From contig NZ_JAJAPB010000005.1 of the NCBI RefSeq assembly GCF_026226615.1, positions 1 to 64,000 on the forward strand: a DNA stretch of 64,000 nt. The letters run 5' to 3'. The notes under the pieces were generated by a model, which searched no databases, was not told the DNA's origin, and worked only from the letters and a program-made list of their open reading frames with translations. The stretch's first letter is position 1, and every line of letters starts with the position of its first letter. Below, piece by piece: positions 11,934-22,071 of the stretch. The DNA comes from Geovibrio ferrireducens (GTDB taxonomy: Bacteria; Chrysiogenota; Deferribacteres; Deferribacterales; Geovibrionaceae). The position numbers were made by a program, and so were the translations under genes.

Positions 11934-12536
11934 ATGAAAAAGACAGCATTGGTAATAGACCTTGACCGCTGCATCGGATGCTATTCATGCGAGGTAGCCT
12001 GCAAAAACGAAAACAAAATAGACCTTGGGGTTCAGTATAATAAAGTTTTCACCATAGGCCCCACAGGTAATTTCCCTAATCTGGAGATGTATTATCTCCC
12101 TGCCGTATGTCAGTCATGCGAAAAGGCTCCCTGCGTTGACGTATGCCCCACAGGTGCATCTTATGTTGACAAGGACGGGGTAATACTCGTTGACAGCAAA
12201 AAATGTATCGCCTGCATGTCCTGCATATCCGCATGCCCTTACGGCGCGCGTAAATTCAACGAAAAACAGCAGTACGTGGAAAAATGCACAATGTGCTCTC
12301 ACCTTCTGAATGCCGGGGATCAGCCCGCATGCGTGAAGGTATGCTGCGCAAAAGCAAGGTTCTTCGGGGATGTCAATGATCCGGAAAGCAAAGTCTCCAA
12401 GATTATCAAGGAAGCAGGTTCCGCTGCCCGCAGTCTTCCGGACGAAGGCAACCGCCCTGCCACACGCTATATCCTGCACGACAAAACAGCAAAATGGCAG
12501 AACAAAAAATCATGGACATTCTTTGAGAATATCTGA
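11934..12536 (+). CDS. Four-cluster ferredoxin subunit B1 (DmsB/PsrB-like)
   Basis: A 200-residue polyferredoxin. It begins LVIDLDRCIGCYSCEVAC and has four cysteine groups, among them CQSCEKAPCVDVCP and CIACMSCISACPYGA, consistent with four [4Fe-4S] clusters. It has no signal of its own and should be exported as a complex with Tat-bearing A1. It carries electrons from the quinol-oxidising membrane part to the molybdenum centre. The start lies 2 bases after the A1 stop. A strong hairpin follows the gene at 12549-12569. Confidence 0.92.
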   Translation: MKKTALVIDLDRCIGCYSCEVACKNENKIDLGVQYNKVFTIGPTGNFPNLEMYYLPAVCQSCEKAPCVDVCPTGASYVDKDGVILVDSKKCIACMSCISACPYGARKFNEKQQYVEKCTMCSHLLNAGDQPACVKVCCAKARFFGDVNDPESKVSKIIKEAGSAARSLPDEGNRPATRYILHDKTAKWQNKKSWTFFENI

Positions 12537-12548
12537 CAGCACACTCAC

Positions 12549-12569
12549 GGGGCGGCGCTTTGCCGCCCC
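12549..12569 (+). terminator. Hairpin between B1 and D1 (attenuator-like)
   Basis: GGGGCGGC-GCTTT-GCCGCCCC is a perfect 8-bp GC stem, followed only by TTAAAA. Without a long T-run it is probably a partial terminator or an mRNA-protecting hairpin that lowers expression of downstream genes or stabilises the A-B message. Copy 2 and arr have hairpins at the equivalent place. Confidence 0.6.
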
Positions 12570-12588
12570 TTAAAACAGGAGAGCCGAA

Positions 12589-13263
12589 ATGGAAGCAATC
12601 GCAGAATATACAGAAATTAATGCCTGCCGCGAGAGAATGTACCTCTTCCTCATGAATTTTTTCAAATCGGAGGTCGATGAAAACCTGTTTTTACAGATGA
12701 AAAACGCATCATATCCGGAGGAAGGGAACTCAGGGATTACCGAGGGGTACAGAATGATAAAAAATTATCTGAATCTCCCGCAGACAGACCCTCTGACAGA
12801 ACTGGCGGTGGATTATGCGAAAGTGTTTCTGGGTGCGGGGATTGTGGACTCAAAGAAGGTCGCTTACCCCTATGAGTCTGTTTATACCAGTCAGGAAAGG
12901 CTGATAATGCAGGATGCAAGAGACGAAATGTTCAGAATCCTGCGGGAAAACAAGCTGGTGCTTGAGCACGGCTACAATATACCGGAAGACCACATTTTCA
13001 TTCAGCTTGAATTCATGGCATACATCTGCGGTGAAATAATAAAAGCCTTTGAAAAAGGGGATGCGGAAACTGCCTGTCGGCTTATGAACGGACAGAAACG
13101 GTTTATTGAGGAGCACCTTTTAAACTGGGTTCCGGAATTTTGTTCAGACATAAAAAAGTTTGCTCTCACTGACTTTTACAAAGGTCTGGCGGTAATAACA
13201 GAAGAATATATAAAAATGGACCTTGCCGTTGTTGAAGACATGCTGTCCGGATGTACCGCTTAA
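12589..13263 (+). CDS. TorD-family molybdoenzyme chaperone D1
   Basis: A 224-residue all-helical cytoplasmic protein of the TorD/DmsD/NarJ type. Family marks include a central LAVDYAKVFLGAG-type helix (about 66-78), PYESVYTSQERL and EDHIFIQLEFMAY (about 128-140). Such chaperones hold the Tat-signal reductase until its cofactor is inserted. The start follows GGAGAGCC. The frame ends just before the anchor gene. D2 (44085-44771) is the paralogue. Confidence 0.9.
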   Translation: MEAIAEYTEINACRERMYLFLMNFFKSEVDENLFLQMKNASYPEEGNSGITEGYRMIKNYLNLPQTDPLTELAVDYAKVFLGAGIVDSKKVAYPYESVYTSQERLIMQDARDEMFRILRENKLVLEHGYNIPEDHIFIQLEFMAYICGEIIKAFEKGDAETACRLMNGQKRFIEEHLLNWVPEFCSDIKKFALTDFYKGLAVITEEYIKMDLAVVEDMLSGCTA

Positions 13264-15592: not shown

Positions 15593-16827
15593 AAAAGCTT
15601 TTTTTAATTTTTTTATTGGCACTCTGTACCGTTGTCACATCATTTGCGGCCGACAATATCAGGGATATGTTCGCAAACGGTTCTCTGGAAGGAGAGATAA
15701 GGGTTTTCAGCTTTCAGAGGAACTTTGACAAAACCACACCCGACAGGCTGGACAACGCCGCCGGAGGACTTTTCTACTACCGTACCGCACCGCTCAAAGG
15801 AATATCGTTCGGAGCAGCCTTCGCAACGGCAAACAGCATTTTCAACGATGACGATGATGCTGTTTACAGCCTCCTCGCCAAGGATGAGGACGGAAACCAC
15901 AAGAGCGTCACCCGTCTTCAGGAGTATTTCATTCAGGGAGAATGGTTTGACACGGTTATCAAATACGGAGCGCAGGAAGTCAAAACCCCTATGTTCAATA
16001 TTCATGACATCCGCATGCTCCCCAGAACCTTCAAAGGGCTTTCCGTTGTGAACAACTCCCTTGAGAATCTGACCCTTTCCGCTTATTACCTTACAGACTC
16101 AATGGGCTGGAGCGATGACGAGTTCATCACACTCTCCAAAGCTGTTGCGGATGAGCCCGGCGGTGCGGCATCAATATCAGAGGATAACCATATGGCAATC
16201 TTCGGGGCATCATACAATATCCCGACAGATGTTCTGAAAGCCAATGTTCAGGGCTGGTTCTACACCATGGAGGACGTTTACAGGGAGACTTTCCTCAAGG
16301 CTTCTCTGAGTAAAAAATTAGGTGAAGCAAACATTTACTTCAATCCTTCATACTTCACACAGAAATCTCAGGGTGATGAGCTCAACGGCGAATCTGATAC
16401 CTATCAGTACGGCTTCGGAACCGGTGTGGTGTTCAAAGGCTTCAATATAACAGGCTTTTACGCTAAAACAGGCGATGACGGTCTGGTTCTTCCGTGGGGT
16501 GATGACAAAGTGGTTATCCAGCAGGTGCTGGCATCCGGCAGAGCCGAAGAGGATGTCTATGCGGCAAGAGTGGCCTATGACTTCTCACAAATCGGGCTTA
16601 AGGGATTGAGCGCTTATATTTTCCATGCTGAGTATGATGTGCCGGAATCAACAGGCAAAGACCAGTCCGAAACGGATTACAATATACAGTATGCCTTTTC
16701 CGGTGCTATGGAAGGTCTCAGCCTCAGGGCGAGATACGCTGACATAAATGTGAAGCAAGGCGGCGAAGACTACAACGACATACGGTTCTACGCCATATAT
16801 AAGTTTGCAATGGGCAAAAAGAAATAA
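15589..16827 (+). CDS. OprD-like outer-membrane porin P1
   Basis: A 412-residue protein with a cleavable signal (residues 1-20, ending FAA), alternating polar/aromatic strands typical of a beta-barrel, and a start (LEGEIRVFSFQRNFD) resembling OprD-type porins of epsilon-proteobacteria. The start follows AGGAGGATTT and overlaps the end of the H1 gene by four bases. It is the last gene of copy 1; its paralogue P2 is the first gene of copy 2. OprD-type channels usually admit small charged organic solutes, which hints that the reductase substrate is one, but the channel specificity is not readable here. Confidence 0.82.
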   Translation: MKKLFLIFLLALCTVVTSFAADNIRDMFANGSLEGEIRVFSFQRNFDKTTPDRLDNAAGGLFYYRTAPLKGISFGAAFATANSIFNDDDDAVYSLLAKDEDGNHKSVTRLQEYFIQGEWFDTVIKYGAQEVKTPMFNIHDIRMLPRTFKGLSVVNNSLENLTLSAYYLTDSMGWSDDEFITLSKAVADEPGGAASISEDNHMAIFGASYNIPTDVLKANVQGWFYTMEDVYRETFLKASLSKKLGEANIYFNPSYFTQKSQGDELNGESDTYQYGFGTGVVFKGFNITGFYAKTGDDGLVLPWGDDKVVIQQVLASGRAEEDVYAARVAYDFSQIGLKGLSAYIFHAEYDVPESTGKDQSETDYNIQYAFSGAMEGLSLRARYADINVKQGGEDYNDIRFYAIYKFAMGKKK

Positions 16828-16850
16828 AAGGCACAAATCAGTAAAGTCGG

Positions 16851-16880
16851 AAGCGGGCATCTCTGCCCGCTTTATCTTTT
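16851..16880 (+). terminator. Rho-independent terminator of copy 1 operon
   Basis: AAGCGGGCA-TCTC-TGCCCGCTT is a perfect 9-bp stem with a 4-base loop, followed by TATCTTTTT. It lies 23 bases after the porin stop. Confidence 0.85.
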
Positions 16881-17028
16881 TGCACTAGTATCCTGCAATG
16901 TTTCTCCTGCCAGATCCGAACAGTCAAAGAACACATGGATTACTTAAAAAGATTACGTCGCCTGAACAGGCTTAATAAATAATTGTGCATTAGTTACGCC
17001 TTATAGTTCTGTTCTATATTAGTCCACG

Positions 17029-17304
17029 TTTGAAGTAGACAACTGTGCAAAACTAAGCACTAGGGGTATTACTATGTCTAGTACTCGTCCTAAAGGTGGC
17101 AGCAGAGTTGAAGAGATAACGTCAGTGAGGCGCTGCCGTTTCAGCACATATGTGTATATTAACGACATACATGATGCCGAAAATATCATGCTAAGCTGCC
17201 TGAATTGTTTGAGGATTATAATAAAAATCACCCGTAGAAGGGTTTGAAAGTAATGTCCCCAAGAGAGTACAGAAGATCTAAGCACCAGTAAGTGTCAACT
17301 TAAA
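17029..17304 (+). mobile_element. Internally deleted IS3-family remnant
   Basis: Degenerate inverted ends face each other: TTTGAAGTAGACAACT at 17029-17044, and the complement of 17290-17304 (TTTAAGTTGACACTT). Inside, an ATG at 17074 opens an OrfA-like start (RPKGGSRVEEI), which soon joins the tail of a DDE transposase: YINDIHDAEN, then in another frame LPELFEDYNKNHP, a TAG at 17235 where H is expected, and KGLKVMSPREYRR to a stop at 17289. YNxxHPHKxL..SPREYR is the typical C-terminus of IS3-family OrfB. The element cannot encode a working transposase. It borders an AT-rich gene of foreign character. Confidence 0.7.
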
Positions 17305-17448
17305 TACGGCAACTATAATTTCATTATATTTGAATAAATATTCAAGCAATCAAATAATAACATAATTAAAGTTCATTATTATGATTTATAATTTTGCATA
17401 GCAAACACTACATGTTATAATATATATCATATAGTTAAGGAGAGGGAC
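17305..17448 (+). other. AT-rich leader of the HEPN/STAND gene
   Basis: A strongly AT-rich stretch ending with AAGGAGAGGGAC directly before the ATG at 17449. Several TATAAT-like hexamers occur (for example near 17417), too many to choose one. No other gene is seen. Confidence 0.4.
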
Positions 17449-20226
17449 ATGGAAAAAGTGATTAGACCATCGGATATCGGCTATACAATTATATCAAGAT
17501 TCGAATCTACCTTACGTGATTTTTTGTCAAACAAGCTACTTATTCTTTATGGTGATACTTATTTATTAGGTATTCCTTCTGGTATACAAGAAAAAACAAA
17601 CAAAAGGATTAATACAGAAGTAATAGAATCAGTGAATGAGTTTTTAGAATTTACAGACTTTATAGACTTAAGAGAGATCATACTTTTTAAATCATTATTT
17701 AGATATTACTTTGATACAGATAAAATAACTTTAAATGATTTCTGTATAATGATGGACGAACTATATGAACTCAGGTGCAAAATAATGCACAGCCGAGGAC
17801 TTCTTACATCAATTAATATTGATAATTTATATACTCATACAAAAGAAATTGCACATGCTTTAAATGACTTCGGAAAAGAATATTTATCTTTCTTAGAAAA
17901 ATTTGAAAAAATCCCCGCTGAATACATATTGCCGATTCCTGATGCTATTAATTTAAATAAAGAAACAAAAAAATATTCAATACCAAATAATTTACCAACA
18001 CCAGATTATGAATATGATGGAGGATTTGTTGGAAGAGAAGATGATATTAAAAAAATATCGAAACTCCTTCTTGGAGATTTACATAATGTCATTACGATAA
18101 CAGGGGCAGGAGGAGTTGGAAAAACTGCTCTAGCTCTGCGTATAGTTCAGATAATACTCAATGGCAATCCCACAAAGTTTGAGGGAATGGTTTGGCTAAG
18201 TGCCAAAGAAGACAAACTATCTGTTGTAGGAATAGAAGACATTGAACCAACGATAAAAAGCTATGAAGAGCTACTTGACACTATTCTAGATGTTATGGGG
18301 TTTGAACACCAAGATTCAACCATAGAACACAAAGAACTAGATGTTAAAACAATATTTGAAATATCTTCTAACTTTCTTATTGTAATTGATAACCTAGAAA
18401 CTATTAATGATGCAGAGATTATTAATTTCATATTAGATGCCCCTCAAAATATTAAAATCCTCATTACAAGTAGAAGAGGATTAGGACAAGTTGAGCGTAG
18501 ATATGAATTAAATCAATTACGAGAACGAGAAGCGGTGGCTCTTTTTCGACAACTTGCTATTGAAAAAAATTTACTTGATTTAGCAAAAATACAAGACGAT
18601 ACAATTAAAATGTATGTCAAAAAAGTTGCATGTTACCCATTAGCAATAAAGTGGGTTATTGGACATGTTGCATTAGGAAAAGATATTAACTATATGTTTG
18701 AACAAGTTAATTCAGAAAAAAGTGATATATCACTATTCTGTTTTGACAATATATACAAGAGCTTAGAAGAATGCTCAAAAAGATTACTTTGTACACTTAG
18801 CTGTTATGACACTCCTTTAGCAGCCGGAGTTATACAATATGTGGCAAATGTTACGACTGAAGAATTTGAAGATAGCATAAGAGACTTGATACTTGTCTCT
18901 TTAATAATACAAGAACAAACTAAAAGTGATGAGGGAGAAATCAAAACAAGGTATAACTTACTCTCTCTTACAAGAGGATTTGTTAGAAACCAACTAGACA
19001 GAAACACCTCTTTGAAAAAAGAATTTGAAGACAGAATGAAAACAGTTCAAAATACTATCGAAGAGGCTGAAAGAGCAAAAAAACAGTATAAATTCAGTCT
19101 ACATAATTTTGGGGCAATTACCGATGAAGAGAAAATTGCAACATTAATAGCTCAGACAGCATATCAAAAATACCAAAGCGGCCGTTATGATGAATCTATT
19201 GATGACTACAAGAGAGCAATTGAAATCGCTCCTCGGTTTGCTTCAATATACAGAAATTGGGCTGTAATGGAATCCACGGAAGGTCATAGTTTGGAAGCTG
19301 ACAAACTTATAAAAAAAGCAACTGATCTTAACCCTTCAGATCCTCAAATATGGCTCATAAAAGGAAATATAAAACGAAAAGAAGGAAAAATTAAAGAAGC
19401 TCTTGAAGCTTATACAAAAGCAATGGAATTAATACCGAATGATTATGTTATCATCAATGCCATAGGTAATTGTAAAAGCAGACTTGGGGAATATGAAGAA
19501 GCGGATACATTATTTAAGAAAGCACTCATGATTGAAAAGAAAGAATTATCAACCTCAAACAAACAAGAGGTAATAAACAGAACGAGTATTGCTGAAAACT
19601 TGAAAAGATGGGCTGAAGCTTTTTCTAGAGAAAGAGATTACAAAAATGCTCAAAACAAACTCTCGAGTGCTTTTGAGGAATGCCAAAAAGCCTTAGTTAT
19701 TGATGAGAATGACCAAAGAACAAAAATACTGTTTAAGCAAGTCCAACTAGATCTAGCTTATGTTTATAAAAAGATAGATCTAAATAGTGCAATAAAAATA
19801 TTTGAAAATATCGTCGTTGAGACCCCGAAGAAGGTTGCAGAAATCAAAATTGTTTTATCTGCTTATAAAGAGTTGATAACAATTTATGTCAATAATAGTA
19901 ATTCTGATAAAGCATTAAAGTTTGCACAAGGTTTTTATAAAATTTCTCACTTTGCTGAAAATGATTTAAGGAAAAAAATAAAATCTCTACTTGACGGATT
20001 ACAAGACAATACTTCCAGAAAAGGAAAAATAATTCATGTATCCTGTGAAAAAGGTTATTGTATTATAGAGTCATCAGTAGCAAAAGGTGATACTTATCTC
20101 GCCCATATTTACGACTTCTTAGAACAACCTAACTATCTTGATGGTTCATATTTAAATAAAGATGTTAGTTTTATACCTTCTAATATTAAAGATAAAAAGA
20201 AAGCTAAACGCATAGCAATTACTTAA
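17449..20226 (+). CDS. HEPN-STAND ATPase-TPR-cold-shock-like protein, defence candidate
   Basis: A 925-residue multidomain protein. The N-terminal helical domain (about 1-155) contains RCKIMH, an RX4H motif (R109, H114) typical of HEPN RNases. An NB-ARC/STAND ATPase follows, with Walker A TGAGGVGKTA (218-227), Walker B FLIVIDNLE (309-317) and ILITSRR (337-343). TPR-like helical repeats occupy about 555-830. The last 67 residues (859-925) look like a small cold-shock/S1-type fold (GKIIHVSCEKGYCII). This order of possible nuclease, nucleotide switch and repeat sensor is that of many bacterial antiphage STAND proteins. The gene is far more AT-rich than its neighbours and sits between transposase debris. 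Function is inferred, not shown. Confidence 0.8.
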   Translation: MEKVIRPSDIGYTIISRFESTLRDFLSNKLLILYGDTYLLGIPSGIQEKTNKRINTEVIESVNEFLEFTDFIDLREIILFKSLFRYYFDTDKITLNDFCIMMDELYELRCKIMHSRGLLTSINIDNLYTHTKEIAHALNDFGKEYLSFLEKFEKIPAEYILPIPDAINLNKETKKYSIPNNLPTPDYEYDGGFVGREDDIKKISKLLLGDLHNVITITGAGGVGKTALALRIVQIILNGNPTKFEGMVWLSAKEDKLSVVGIEDIEPTIKSYEELLDTILDVMGFEHQDSTIEHKELDVKTIFEISSNFLIVIDNLETINDAEIINFILDAPQNIKILITSRRGLGQVERRYELNQLREREAVALFRQLAIEKNLLDLAKIQDDTIKMYVKKVACYPLAIKWVIGHVALGKDINYMFEQVNSEKSDISLFCFDNIYKSLEECSKRLLCTLSCYDTPLAAGVIQYVANVTTEEFEDSIRDLILVSLIIQEQTKSDEGEIKTRYNLLSLTRGFVRNQLDRNTSLKKEFEDRMKTVQNTIEEAERAKKQYKFSLHNFGAITDEEKIATLIAQTAYQKYQSGRYDESIDDYKRAIEIAPRFASIYRNWAVMESTEGHSLEADKLIKKATDLNPSDPQIWLIKGNIKRKEGKIKEALEAYTKAMELIPNDYVIINAIGNCKSRLGEYEEADTLFKKALMIEKKELSTSNKQEVINRTSIAENLKRWAEAFSRERDYKNAQNKLSSAFEECQKALVIDENDQRTKILFKQVQLDLAYVYKKIDLNSAIKIFENIVVETPKKVAEIKIVLSAYKELITIYVNNSNSDKALKFAQGFYKISHFAENDLRKKIKSLLDGLQDNTSRKGKIIHVSCEKGYCIIESSVAKGDTYLAHIYDFLEQPNYLDGSYLNKDVSFIPSNIKDKKKAKRIAIT

Positions 20227-20413
20227 AGTAATAGTTTAGTATTTTTAGATAAAAACAATCTTAAAATGTACGCTACGCAAAAAAAGTGAATCAAGCTATT
20301 AAAATTATACTTTCAGTAAGAGGTAGATTATAGTGGATCGACGATCGAAGACAGTCACAGTAGACTTCTAAGTGTTTTTTGACTTAAAATACTGTAAGAA
20401 ATCGGAGGTTCAC
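20227..20413. other. Intergenic flank of the AT-rich island
   Basis: The AT-rich 3' flank of the HEPN/STAND gene with no clear terminator. Past about 20330 the base composition starts to return to that of the neighbouring genes. It ends in a ribosome binding site (ATCGGAGG) for the truncated transposase start at 20414. Confidence 0.4.
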
Positions 20414-20452
20414 ATGAGCAAGAAGAGACGGCATTTTCCTGCCAAACAGAAG
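20414..20452 (+). pseudogene. Transposase N-terminal fragment
   Basis: After a good ribosome binding site, ATG opens MSKKRRHFPAKQK, which resembles the start of transposase OrfA proteins (MSKKRRHF..EQK type). The frame then enters a long perfect palindrome and shows no further similarity, so only about 13 codons remain. It forms the right border of the AT-rich island. Confidence 0.5.
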
Positions 20453-20509
20453 CGTAAGTACTACAATGCCTCCCCTTTATCAAGGGATGGCATTGTAGTA
20501 CTTACGCTT
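20450..20509. repeat. 60-base near-perfect palindrome
   Basis: Arms of 21 bases at 20450-20470 and 20489-20509 are exact reverse complements (starting AAGCGTAAGTACTACAATG). The 18-base centre itself folds (CCTT/AAGG). The arms are too long for an ordinary terminator, and no T-run follows on either strand. It could be the scar or target of a mobile element, or a cruciform. Confidence 0.75.
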
Positions 20510-20510
20510 G

Positions 20511-20545
20511 CACAAAAAAAATCCACCCCGAACCGAGGTGGATTT
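20511..20545 (-). terminator. Rho-independent terminator of the phosphoesterase gene
   Basis: AAATCCACC (20519-20527) pairs with GGTGGATTT (20537-20545). Read leftward, the stem is followed by a run of eight T. It lies about 50 bases past the phosphoesterase stop. Confidence 0.8.
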
Positions 20546-20592
20546 CATTATGAATCACAGTGATATTCAGCCTTGCTATGCGGCGTAAACTG

Positions 20593-21912
20593 CTAGTCGT
20601 CAGTCGCTGCCAAAGAGGCTGTTACATCTTCGGCTGTGCCGTCAGCCAGATAGCTGTAGACAGCCGAAGTGCTTGATGCTCCGGTGGTTATAACGGCAAA
20701 TGTGCGTTCAATATTCTGAAAGTCAACATTGTGGTCTATCCATGTTCCGGAGTTAACATAATGCTTTCCTCCGCCTGCATCTCTGTATGAGGGTACATGA
20801 GTATGCCCGAATACAACCACATCCACATTTTCAGAAGGGTTTTCCAGATACTGAACCTTTGCCTGCGCAAAATATGCGGCAGAGTTAACCGAAGCTGGCA
20901 CAGCCTCTATAAAACTGCTGTGAACATTAACATTATTGAGTGTCTGACGCTCAGCCCATGTACGCTGAATATTTTTAAACAGTACAGGCGCAGAAATCGT
21001 TCCATCTTCCAGCTCTGCAGGGTAGAAATCCAGATACGAATAAGAATCATTAAAGCCTGAAATACGCATATCAAATATCTTTGCTTCCGGAGCCTCATAA
21101 GGAGTCATACGCTCGGAGACGCTTTTAAGAGTCAGATGATACAAATAAGCACCATACTGATCAGGATCGCTCATATCAGGTATGTTAGTTACCCCAGGCA
21201 GGATCTTGGGAACCGTTGGCTTCCCTTCCAATACCCATGTTGCGGCATAGCGCGCATAAAAATAACCTGCCGGGAGGATAGTGTCATCATTGCCGCACAG
21301 TTCCGCATTAGTTACTGTATCCGGTGCGGAAAAAATGTCATAACGGTGACCGTGCTCAATAACAATCTCGTTCCTGTCGCCAGTGTAATAAGCACCAAGC
21401 CCTCTGACATCTCTGGCCTGAACCAGACCGGGAATTGCTTCCTGTAAAATGTATGATTCCAGTGTCAGGTCATGGTTTCCGGGAACATAGACCAGTTTTA
21501 TCCCGCTCGCGATTACTTTGTTCAGTTCATTGAACACACTCTGATTGTTTGCAATCACACTCCTGTAAAACAGATCCTGATCGGTGTGGCTTGGATAATA
21601 GACAGGCAAAAACCATTCATCAAGGAAATCCCCGGCGATGACCAGCTCACGCACATCTGTGGTTTTTCTGACTGATTTAAGAAAATTAACTAAATGCGAA
21701 CGGTTTTGCTTGGTTTCGGTGTATCTGTCATCTATACCGAGGTGAATATCACTTATAACGACAATTTTGTCTCTTGTGCTGCCGGGTTCCCATAAAGGTC
21801 CAGCGTCCGAGCCGGAGGAACCCGATGAACATCCGAGAGTGTTGAGTGCTATAAAACAGGCTCCGGCGCCTAAACCAAGATTTTTAATAAAATGTCTTCG
21901 GGTAAATTTCAT
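20593..21912 (-). CDS. Tat-lipoprotein calcineurin-like phosphoesterase
   Basis: A 439-residue protein. The N-terminus combines a Tat signal (FTRRHFIKN) with a lipobox (LNTLGC), so it should be exported folded and lipid-anchored. Metallophosphoesterase motifs are in order: SDIHLGID, GDFLDEW, GNHD, a GH pair (HGHRYD) and FGHTHVPSY, giving a two-metal active site. It is related to the UDP-diacylglucosamine pyrophosphatase/phosphodiesterase group, but a lipoprotein would meet a different, extracytoplasmic substrate. ATG 21912 follows GGAGG. It is monocistronic with a clear terminator. A role in releasing phosphate next to the phosphonate operon is only a guess. Confidence 0.88.
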   Translation of the reverse strand: MKFTRRHFIKNLGLGAGACFIALNTLGCSSGSSGSDAGPLWEPGSTRDKIVVISDIHLGIDDRYTETKQNRSHLVNFLKSVRKTTDVRELVIAGDFLDEWFLPVYYPSHTDQDLFYRSVIANNQSVFNELNKVIASGIKLVYVPGNHDLTLESYILQEAIPGLVQARDVRGLGAYYTGDRNEIVIEHGHRYDIFSAPDTVTNAELCGNDDTILPAGYFYARYAATWVLEGKPTVPKILPGVTNIPDMSDPDQYGAYLYHLTLKSVSERMTPYEAPEAKIFDMRISGFNDSYSYLDFYPAELEDGTISAPVLFKNIQRTWAERQTLNNVNVHSSFIEAVPASVNSAAYFAQAKVQYLENPSENVDVVVFGHTHVPSYRDAGGGKHYVNSGTWIDHNVDFQNIERTFAVITTGASSTSAVYSYLADGTAEDVTASLAATDD

Positions 21913-22071
21913 ATCGAACCTCCGGCAACTCAATGCCATTTCGTAAATTTTGGTTCTGAGAATATCCCGAAAAAAGGTTAAGTTAAGCCCATGCGCTTAA
22001 AAGACTCATTTTTACACTTAAAAACTTTACTGCCCTAAGCTAACTCTTTATAACTAAAAATCCGTATATTT

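Follow-up and report, generated by a model that had tools for sequence, protein, structure and literature searches.

A Swt1-like HEPN–NB-ARC–TPR protein with a cold-shock tail in Geovibrio ferrireducens, a probable stand-alone conflict protein

Results and discussion

Geovibrio ferrireducens encodes a protein in which an N-terminal Swt1-like HEPN domain, a central NB-ARC-type STAND NTPase, TPR repeats and a C-terminal cold-shock domain (CSD) follow one another in a single chain. This protein is probably a stand-alone NLR-like (STAND) conflict protein of a Swt1-HEPN–NB-ARC–TPR–CSD family, in which a trigger-sensing switch would turn on a HEPN RNase in abortive anti-phage defence. STAND proteins are bacterial cousins of the immune receptors of animals and plants. 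Here, one chain couples a STAND switch with putative RNA-cutting and RNA-binding-type domains, and because a single gene contains four clear mutable sites, both trigger and effector are directly testable.

The gene is a single uninterrupted ORF with an ATG start on contig NZ_JAJAPB010000005.1, of which the first 64,000 nucleotides were analysed (the window). The original prediction, made from the sequence of the window, had placed one 925-residue chain at 17449–20226 and divided it into HEPN, NB-ARC, TPR and cold-shock parts. The ORF lies exactly there, on the plus strand, and Pfam, profiles of the relatives and the model of the tail support the four-domain architecture. The features of the locus are as follows.

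17190–17288, plus strand: degraded C-terminal remnant of an IS3-family transposase with one in-frame stop (by similarity)
17393–17421, plus strand: promoter-like TTTGCA-17-TATAAT with TG before the -10 (consensus match only)
17437–17442, plus strand: ribosome-binding site AAGGAG, 6 nt 5' of the ATG (sequence)
17449–20226, plus strand: HEPN-STAND-TPR-CSD gene (925 aa ORF)
17452–17913, plus strand: N-terminal Swt1-like HEPN domain, about residues 2–155 (PADLOC, PF18731 in homologues, alignment, model)
17773–17790, plus strand: HEPN RX4H motif, R109-CKIM-H114 (invariant in 19 homologues)
18022–18714, plus strand: NB-ARC/STAND NTPase domain, residues 192–422 (Pfam NB-ARC, 4.8e-14, residues 197–422)
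18103–18126, plus strand: Walker A GAGGVGKT, residues 219–226 (GG-x-GKTA invariant)
18715–19008, plus strand: post-NB-ARC region, presumed winged-helix part of the STAND module, residues 423–520 (domain name inferred)
19159–19548, plus strand: canonical TPR repeats, residues 571–700 (Pfam)
20005–20223, plus strand: cold-shock (CSD/OB-fold) domain, residues 853–925 (Pfam matches of relatives, profile, model)
20050–20067, plus strand: RNP1-like motif KGYCII, residues 868–873 (alignment)
20450–20509, no strand: 28-nt near-perfect inverted repeat 3' of the gene, AAGCGTAAGTACTACAATGCC... (sequence)

The HEPN domain

The Pfam scan of the window protein gave no match at its N-terminal end and left the HEPN domain undetected. 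The PADLOC model PDC-M34B, which represents a candidate defence family, matches residues 12–127 (7e-7) and also recognizes seven of the 19 homologous N-termini. PF18731 (HEPN_Swt1) matches 10 of the 19 aligned homologues (best 1.3e-4), the window protein itself being unmatched, and with a profile of the remaining family members the window domain reaches 3e-14. Alignment of the 19 N-terminal domains leaves just three invariant positions, E19, R109 and H114, which is the pattern expected of a catalytic RNase site. The invariance of R109 and H114, together with PF18731 in the relatives, bears out the RX4H HEPN domain that had been read from the sequence, and the domain is predicted to be an RNase.

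The AlphaFold2 model of the domain (pLDDT 89) is all-helical, and one long helix carries the RX4H motif at its end. In a Foldseek search of the PDB its most plausible match was AbiF (PDB id: 8vz6), with a TMq of 0.51 and a non-significant E-value of 2.7, and the HEPN profile found only chance matches among PDB sequences. Since Foldseek returned no significant PDB match, the domain is identified mainly by its motif and by the family profile.

The STAND ATPase and the TPR repeats

The P-loop, DNLET and TSR motifs and the P397-L398 pair are invariant in an alignment of four sequences. The usual Walker B motif has two adjacent aspartates (DD). In the window protein it reads FLIVIDNLET (residues 309–318, positions 18373–18402), and the asparagine that replaces the second acidic residue is invariant in the same four-sequence sample. 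Because of this IDN in place of DD, ATP hydrolysis may be slow or weak. Conserved positions in the presumed winged-helix part are L447, L480, S484 and Y502. Several Pfam TPR models exceed the cut-off in the window protein, covering residues 574–700 with E-values down to 2e-17. None of the PADLOC models of validated STAND systems matched the window protein, the Avs models included; other than PDC-M34B, its PADLOC matches were to generic TPR models and, weakly, to mad8 (0.007).

The cold-shock tail

Pfam found no CSD match in the tail of the window protein; in three relatives (L033, L034 and the Planococcus protein) a CSD scores above the curated cut-off. A profile of 17 family tails matches solved cold-shock structures with values down to 7e-15. 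The AlphaFold2 model of the window tail is a five-strand barrel (pLDDT of about 95). Each of its 17 matches in the PDB at E ≤ 0.001 is a cold-shock protein or domain; E. coli CspA (PDB id: 1mjc) is one of them, with a TMt of 0.84 and an rmsd of 1.9. The profile and the CspA-like model confirm the proposed C-terminal cold-shock/S1-like fold. Structure prediction, which had been put forward as a check on the protein, supports the tail and left the all-helical HEPN model with no significant counterpart in the PDB.

In cold-shock proteins, the RNP1 counterpart of KGYCII is KGFGFI. The aromatic residue of RNP1 is kept as Tyr870, and this position is aromatic in all 17 aligned tails. The RNP motifs of the tail are divergent, RNP2 being conserved only in part, and for this reason binding of nucleic acid by the tail is likely but not certain. 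The original prediction had considered a nucleic-acid-binding-like tail unusual. It is not: a CSD tail is the rule in the HEPN clade described below, and was noted already in 2013.

One clade across phyla

Relatives were found by scanning GTDB genomes with an alignment of the window protein and plasmid homologues. Peptide patterns taken from the window protein alone returned no close relatives in genome or viral collections, and no relative of the protein was found in phage records. The best full-length relative is a Flavobacteriaceae protein (L026), with 48% identity across the HEPN and NB-ARC portion. In a maximum-likelihood tree of the NB-ARC domain (56 rows), all 23 HEPN-bearing rows fall into one clade with a support of 97/96. 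Its members are scattered among Bacteroidota, Pseudomonadota, Bacillota and Actinomycetota, with one in a Thorarchaeota MAG. L026 branches with the window protein first and the Thorarchaeota protein L027 next (99/95 each), an order quite unlike the species tree.

Leave-one-out profiles found the tail in all of the tested HEPN-bearing members that are intact, with scores from 0.003 in the weakest member (L027) to 1e-14, the window protein scoring 1.9e-5; the HEPN domain was recovered in members at 1.4e-11 or better. None of the 36 HEPN-lacking relatives has a tail score below 0.69. One of these, L065, a long-branched and distant row, scores 3e-4 with the HEPN profile. The tail counts omit L038 and L051, whose contigs stop within the gene or close to it, as well as the broken L084. 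Within this single clade, which extends over several phyla, the HEPN domain and the CSD are passed on together, and this co-inheritance is what the present analysis adds. The family is rare yet widespread, with a range of at least five bacterial phyla and possibly the Asgard archaea; its residence in archaea has to be taken with caution because L027 comes from a low-coverage MAG.

Horizontal acquisition of the gene

The gene stands by itself; on its left a porin-like gene (plus strand) ends at 16827, and on its right lies a metallophosphoesterase-like gene at 20593–21939 (minus strand), both neighbours being named from their translations. Its GC content is 31% (21% at third positions) against 48% around it, which is 8 SD lower than in segments of equal size from the window. 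Among the 241 genomes searched around G. ferrireducens, its own genome is the only one with a family member, and none was found in the other 240, both congeners included. A search for housekeeping copies in the lineage yielded none, the other matches in relatives being mostly generic TPR proteins. In one congener (G001) the left flank (to 16828) lies on one contig and the right flank (from 20683) on another, which places the gene at a rearrangement point (16828–20683); in the other congener (G002), the neighbours of the left flank are reordered. Base composition, the synteny break and absence from 240 genomes support horizontal acquisition of the gene, in agreement with the earlier reading of the locus as a transferred AT-rich island.

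That reading also had transposase fragments on both flanks. The left one stands, as the remnant at 17190–17288 is 68–69% identical to plasmid IS3 family transposases (E-values of 5e-6 to 2e-5), but the right one (20414–20450) is very short and at most a candidate. By eye, the start of a short ORF there, at 20414, looks like the start of IS3 OrfA. The inverted repeat at 20450–20509 has no second copy in the genome, and no terminator-like site was scored on it. No Rfam match to a non-coding RNA was found in the AT-rich island.

The genes around it in its own genome serve respiration and metabolism, and no defence gene is evident among its neighbours. Binding of cellular RNA is common among CSDs. 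Both points would suit a stress-responsive or housekeeping RNA regulator that needs no trigger specific to phage: its CSD would bind cellular RNA and, under stress, its HEPN RNase would trim transcripts or break them down. Such a role is unlikely for a gene that is AT-rich, adjoins an IS remnant and has no counterpart in both congeners and the other genomes searched. The presence of family members on plasmids and their rapid divergence, with three invariant HEPN residues only, also speak against it.

Plasmid copies are found in Planococcus, Rhizobium and Acinetobacter. Six small Acinetobacter plasmid records share one match (L023), two of them 8 kb in size. On the one 8-kb plasmid that was read, no gene is larger than the family member, which adjoins a RelE/HTH toxin-antitoxin pair. 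These plasmid relatives, the last one included, are what a selfish stabiliser of mobile DNA would predict. As an addiction-like or plasmid-competition RNase, such a stabiliser would respond to loss of the element or attack plasmids that enter the cell, and would not be directed at phage. We find this quite improbable: the gene is single, with no partner antitoxin in the window, its STAND switch is self-contained, and several relatives are chromosomal or adjoin restriction-modification (R-M) genes. That the gene is a non-functional or decaying leftover of an insertion event, as the degraded state of the adjoining IS3 remnant and the divergent RNP motifs might suggest, is very improbable in view of 925 uninterrupted codons, intact catalytic and P-loop motifs, a promoter-like site and a ribosome-binding site.

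Defence context and a possible mechanism

Type I R-M genes adjoin 3 of about 22 relatives (Rhizobium BG4, L025; Thorarchaeota, L027; Flavobacteriaceae, L028). As a rough control, made in other taxa and set against few loci, about 74 HSDR_N matches were counted in roughly 140 Mb from 60 genomes, a rate that predicts about 0.1 for the roughly 0.2 Mb covered here. The genes adjoining the copies of the relatives differ and include no conserved partner gene; when scanned singly with PADLOC, most of them gave no match. In the Clostridia locus (L043), a TIR-like protein (12437–12952), as read from its sequence, is encoded directly 3' of the family member, and a RhuM-type-looking gene is located upstream. 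As to the neighbourhood survey for defence islands proposed together with the original prediction, the R-M genes beside three relatives favour a defence context; at the gene's own locus none is evident.

Antiphage systems are known to use both HEPN and STAND modules (PMC3710099; PMC9122126). The domain logic, the patchy distribution, the plasmid carriage and the R-M neighbours together suggest an anti-phage role for the family. By analogy with characterised STAND proteins, the ATPase would keep the monomer closed at rest. The TPR superhelix and/or the CSD would sense the infection, the likeliest cue being phage RNA or an RNA-protein complex, upon which ATP binding would lead to oligomerisation. 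The oligomer would bring HEPN domains together into active RNase pairs, which would cut host and/or phage RNA, so that infected cells would be arrested or killed before they release phage. Oligomerisation, the identity of the trigger and the RNA target are all drawn from this analogy.

Less probable is that the CSD itself is the trigger sensor. The protein would then be a prokaryotic NLR-type receptor that reads phage RNA directly and answers with a HEPN RNase, across bacteria and possibly in Asgard archaea. If true, this would amount to an RNA-in, RNA-out immune switch.

Relation to known systems

Anantharaman et al. (2013) list "Swt1-like HEPN + STAND, TPR, S1" in their Table 1 and also name HEPN + STAND proteins with C-terminal cold-shock-like OB-folds (PMC3710099). 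The domain set and the HEPN family (PF18731) are alike, the comparison being one of architecture descriptions; the table entry has S1, whereas the tail of the window protein is specifically of the cold-shock type. Judged by its domain architecture, the window protein is a new, divergent member of the family catalogued in 2013. Our literature search, in which subscription journals and bioRxiv preprints were largely outside coverage, found no experimental test of any HEPN–NB-ARC–TPR–CSD protein.

P4-like satellites encode antiphage STAND/NLR proteins that have repeats at the C-terminus and TIR, SIR2 or nuclease domains as effectors (PMC9122126). These and the AVAST/Avs proteins share with the window protein an N-terminal effector, a central STAND NTPase and C-terminal repeats. 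The original comparison of its first three domains to antiphage STAND effectors holds. The window protein differs from these proteins in that its effector is a HEPN domain and an extra RNA-binding-type domain follows the repeats. AbiF, an ncRNA-bound HEPN protein, belongs to the same Abi2/Swt1 group in the 2013 classification, but has no STAND, TPR or CSD part. CoCoNuT type IV restriction systems combine HEPN nucleases, cold-shock domains and NTPases with predicted RNA targeting (PMC11090510); unlike the window protein, they use an McrBC GTPase, coiled coils and multi-gene operons and have no single NB-ARC–TPR chain. Kaur et al. (2020) name S1-like and cold-shock domains when they list the domains with which NTP-dependent conflict systems target nucleic acids (PMC7159879).

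Cyanobacterial NB-ARC–TPR proteins (e.g. Anabaena P0004; L036–L049) have a related NB-ARC domain and repeats, but no HEPN motif at the right place and no CSD tail, and they occupy a separate side of the tree. NB-ARC matches in two genomes (G145 and G185) were rejected as members, their N-terminus reading LRNKTRGHG and a CSD-like tail being absent. Two distant genomes encode NB-ARC–TPR proteins (L121, 748–3369; L122, 727–3330) that have an N-terminal LRNKTRGHG (RX5H, HEPN-like) and no cold-shock tail. This type possibly represents a separate HEPN–STAND family.
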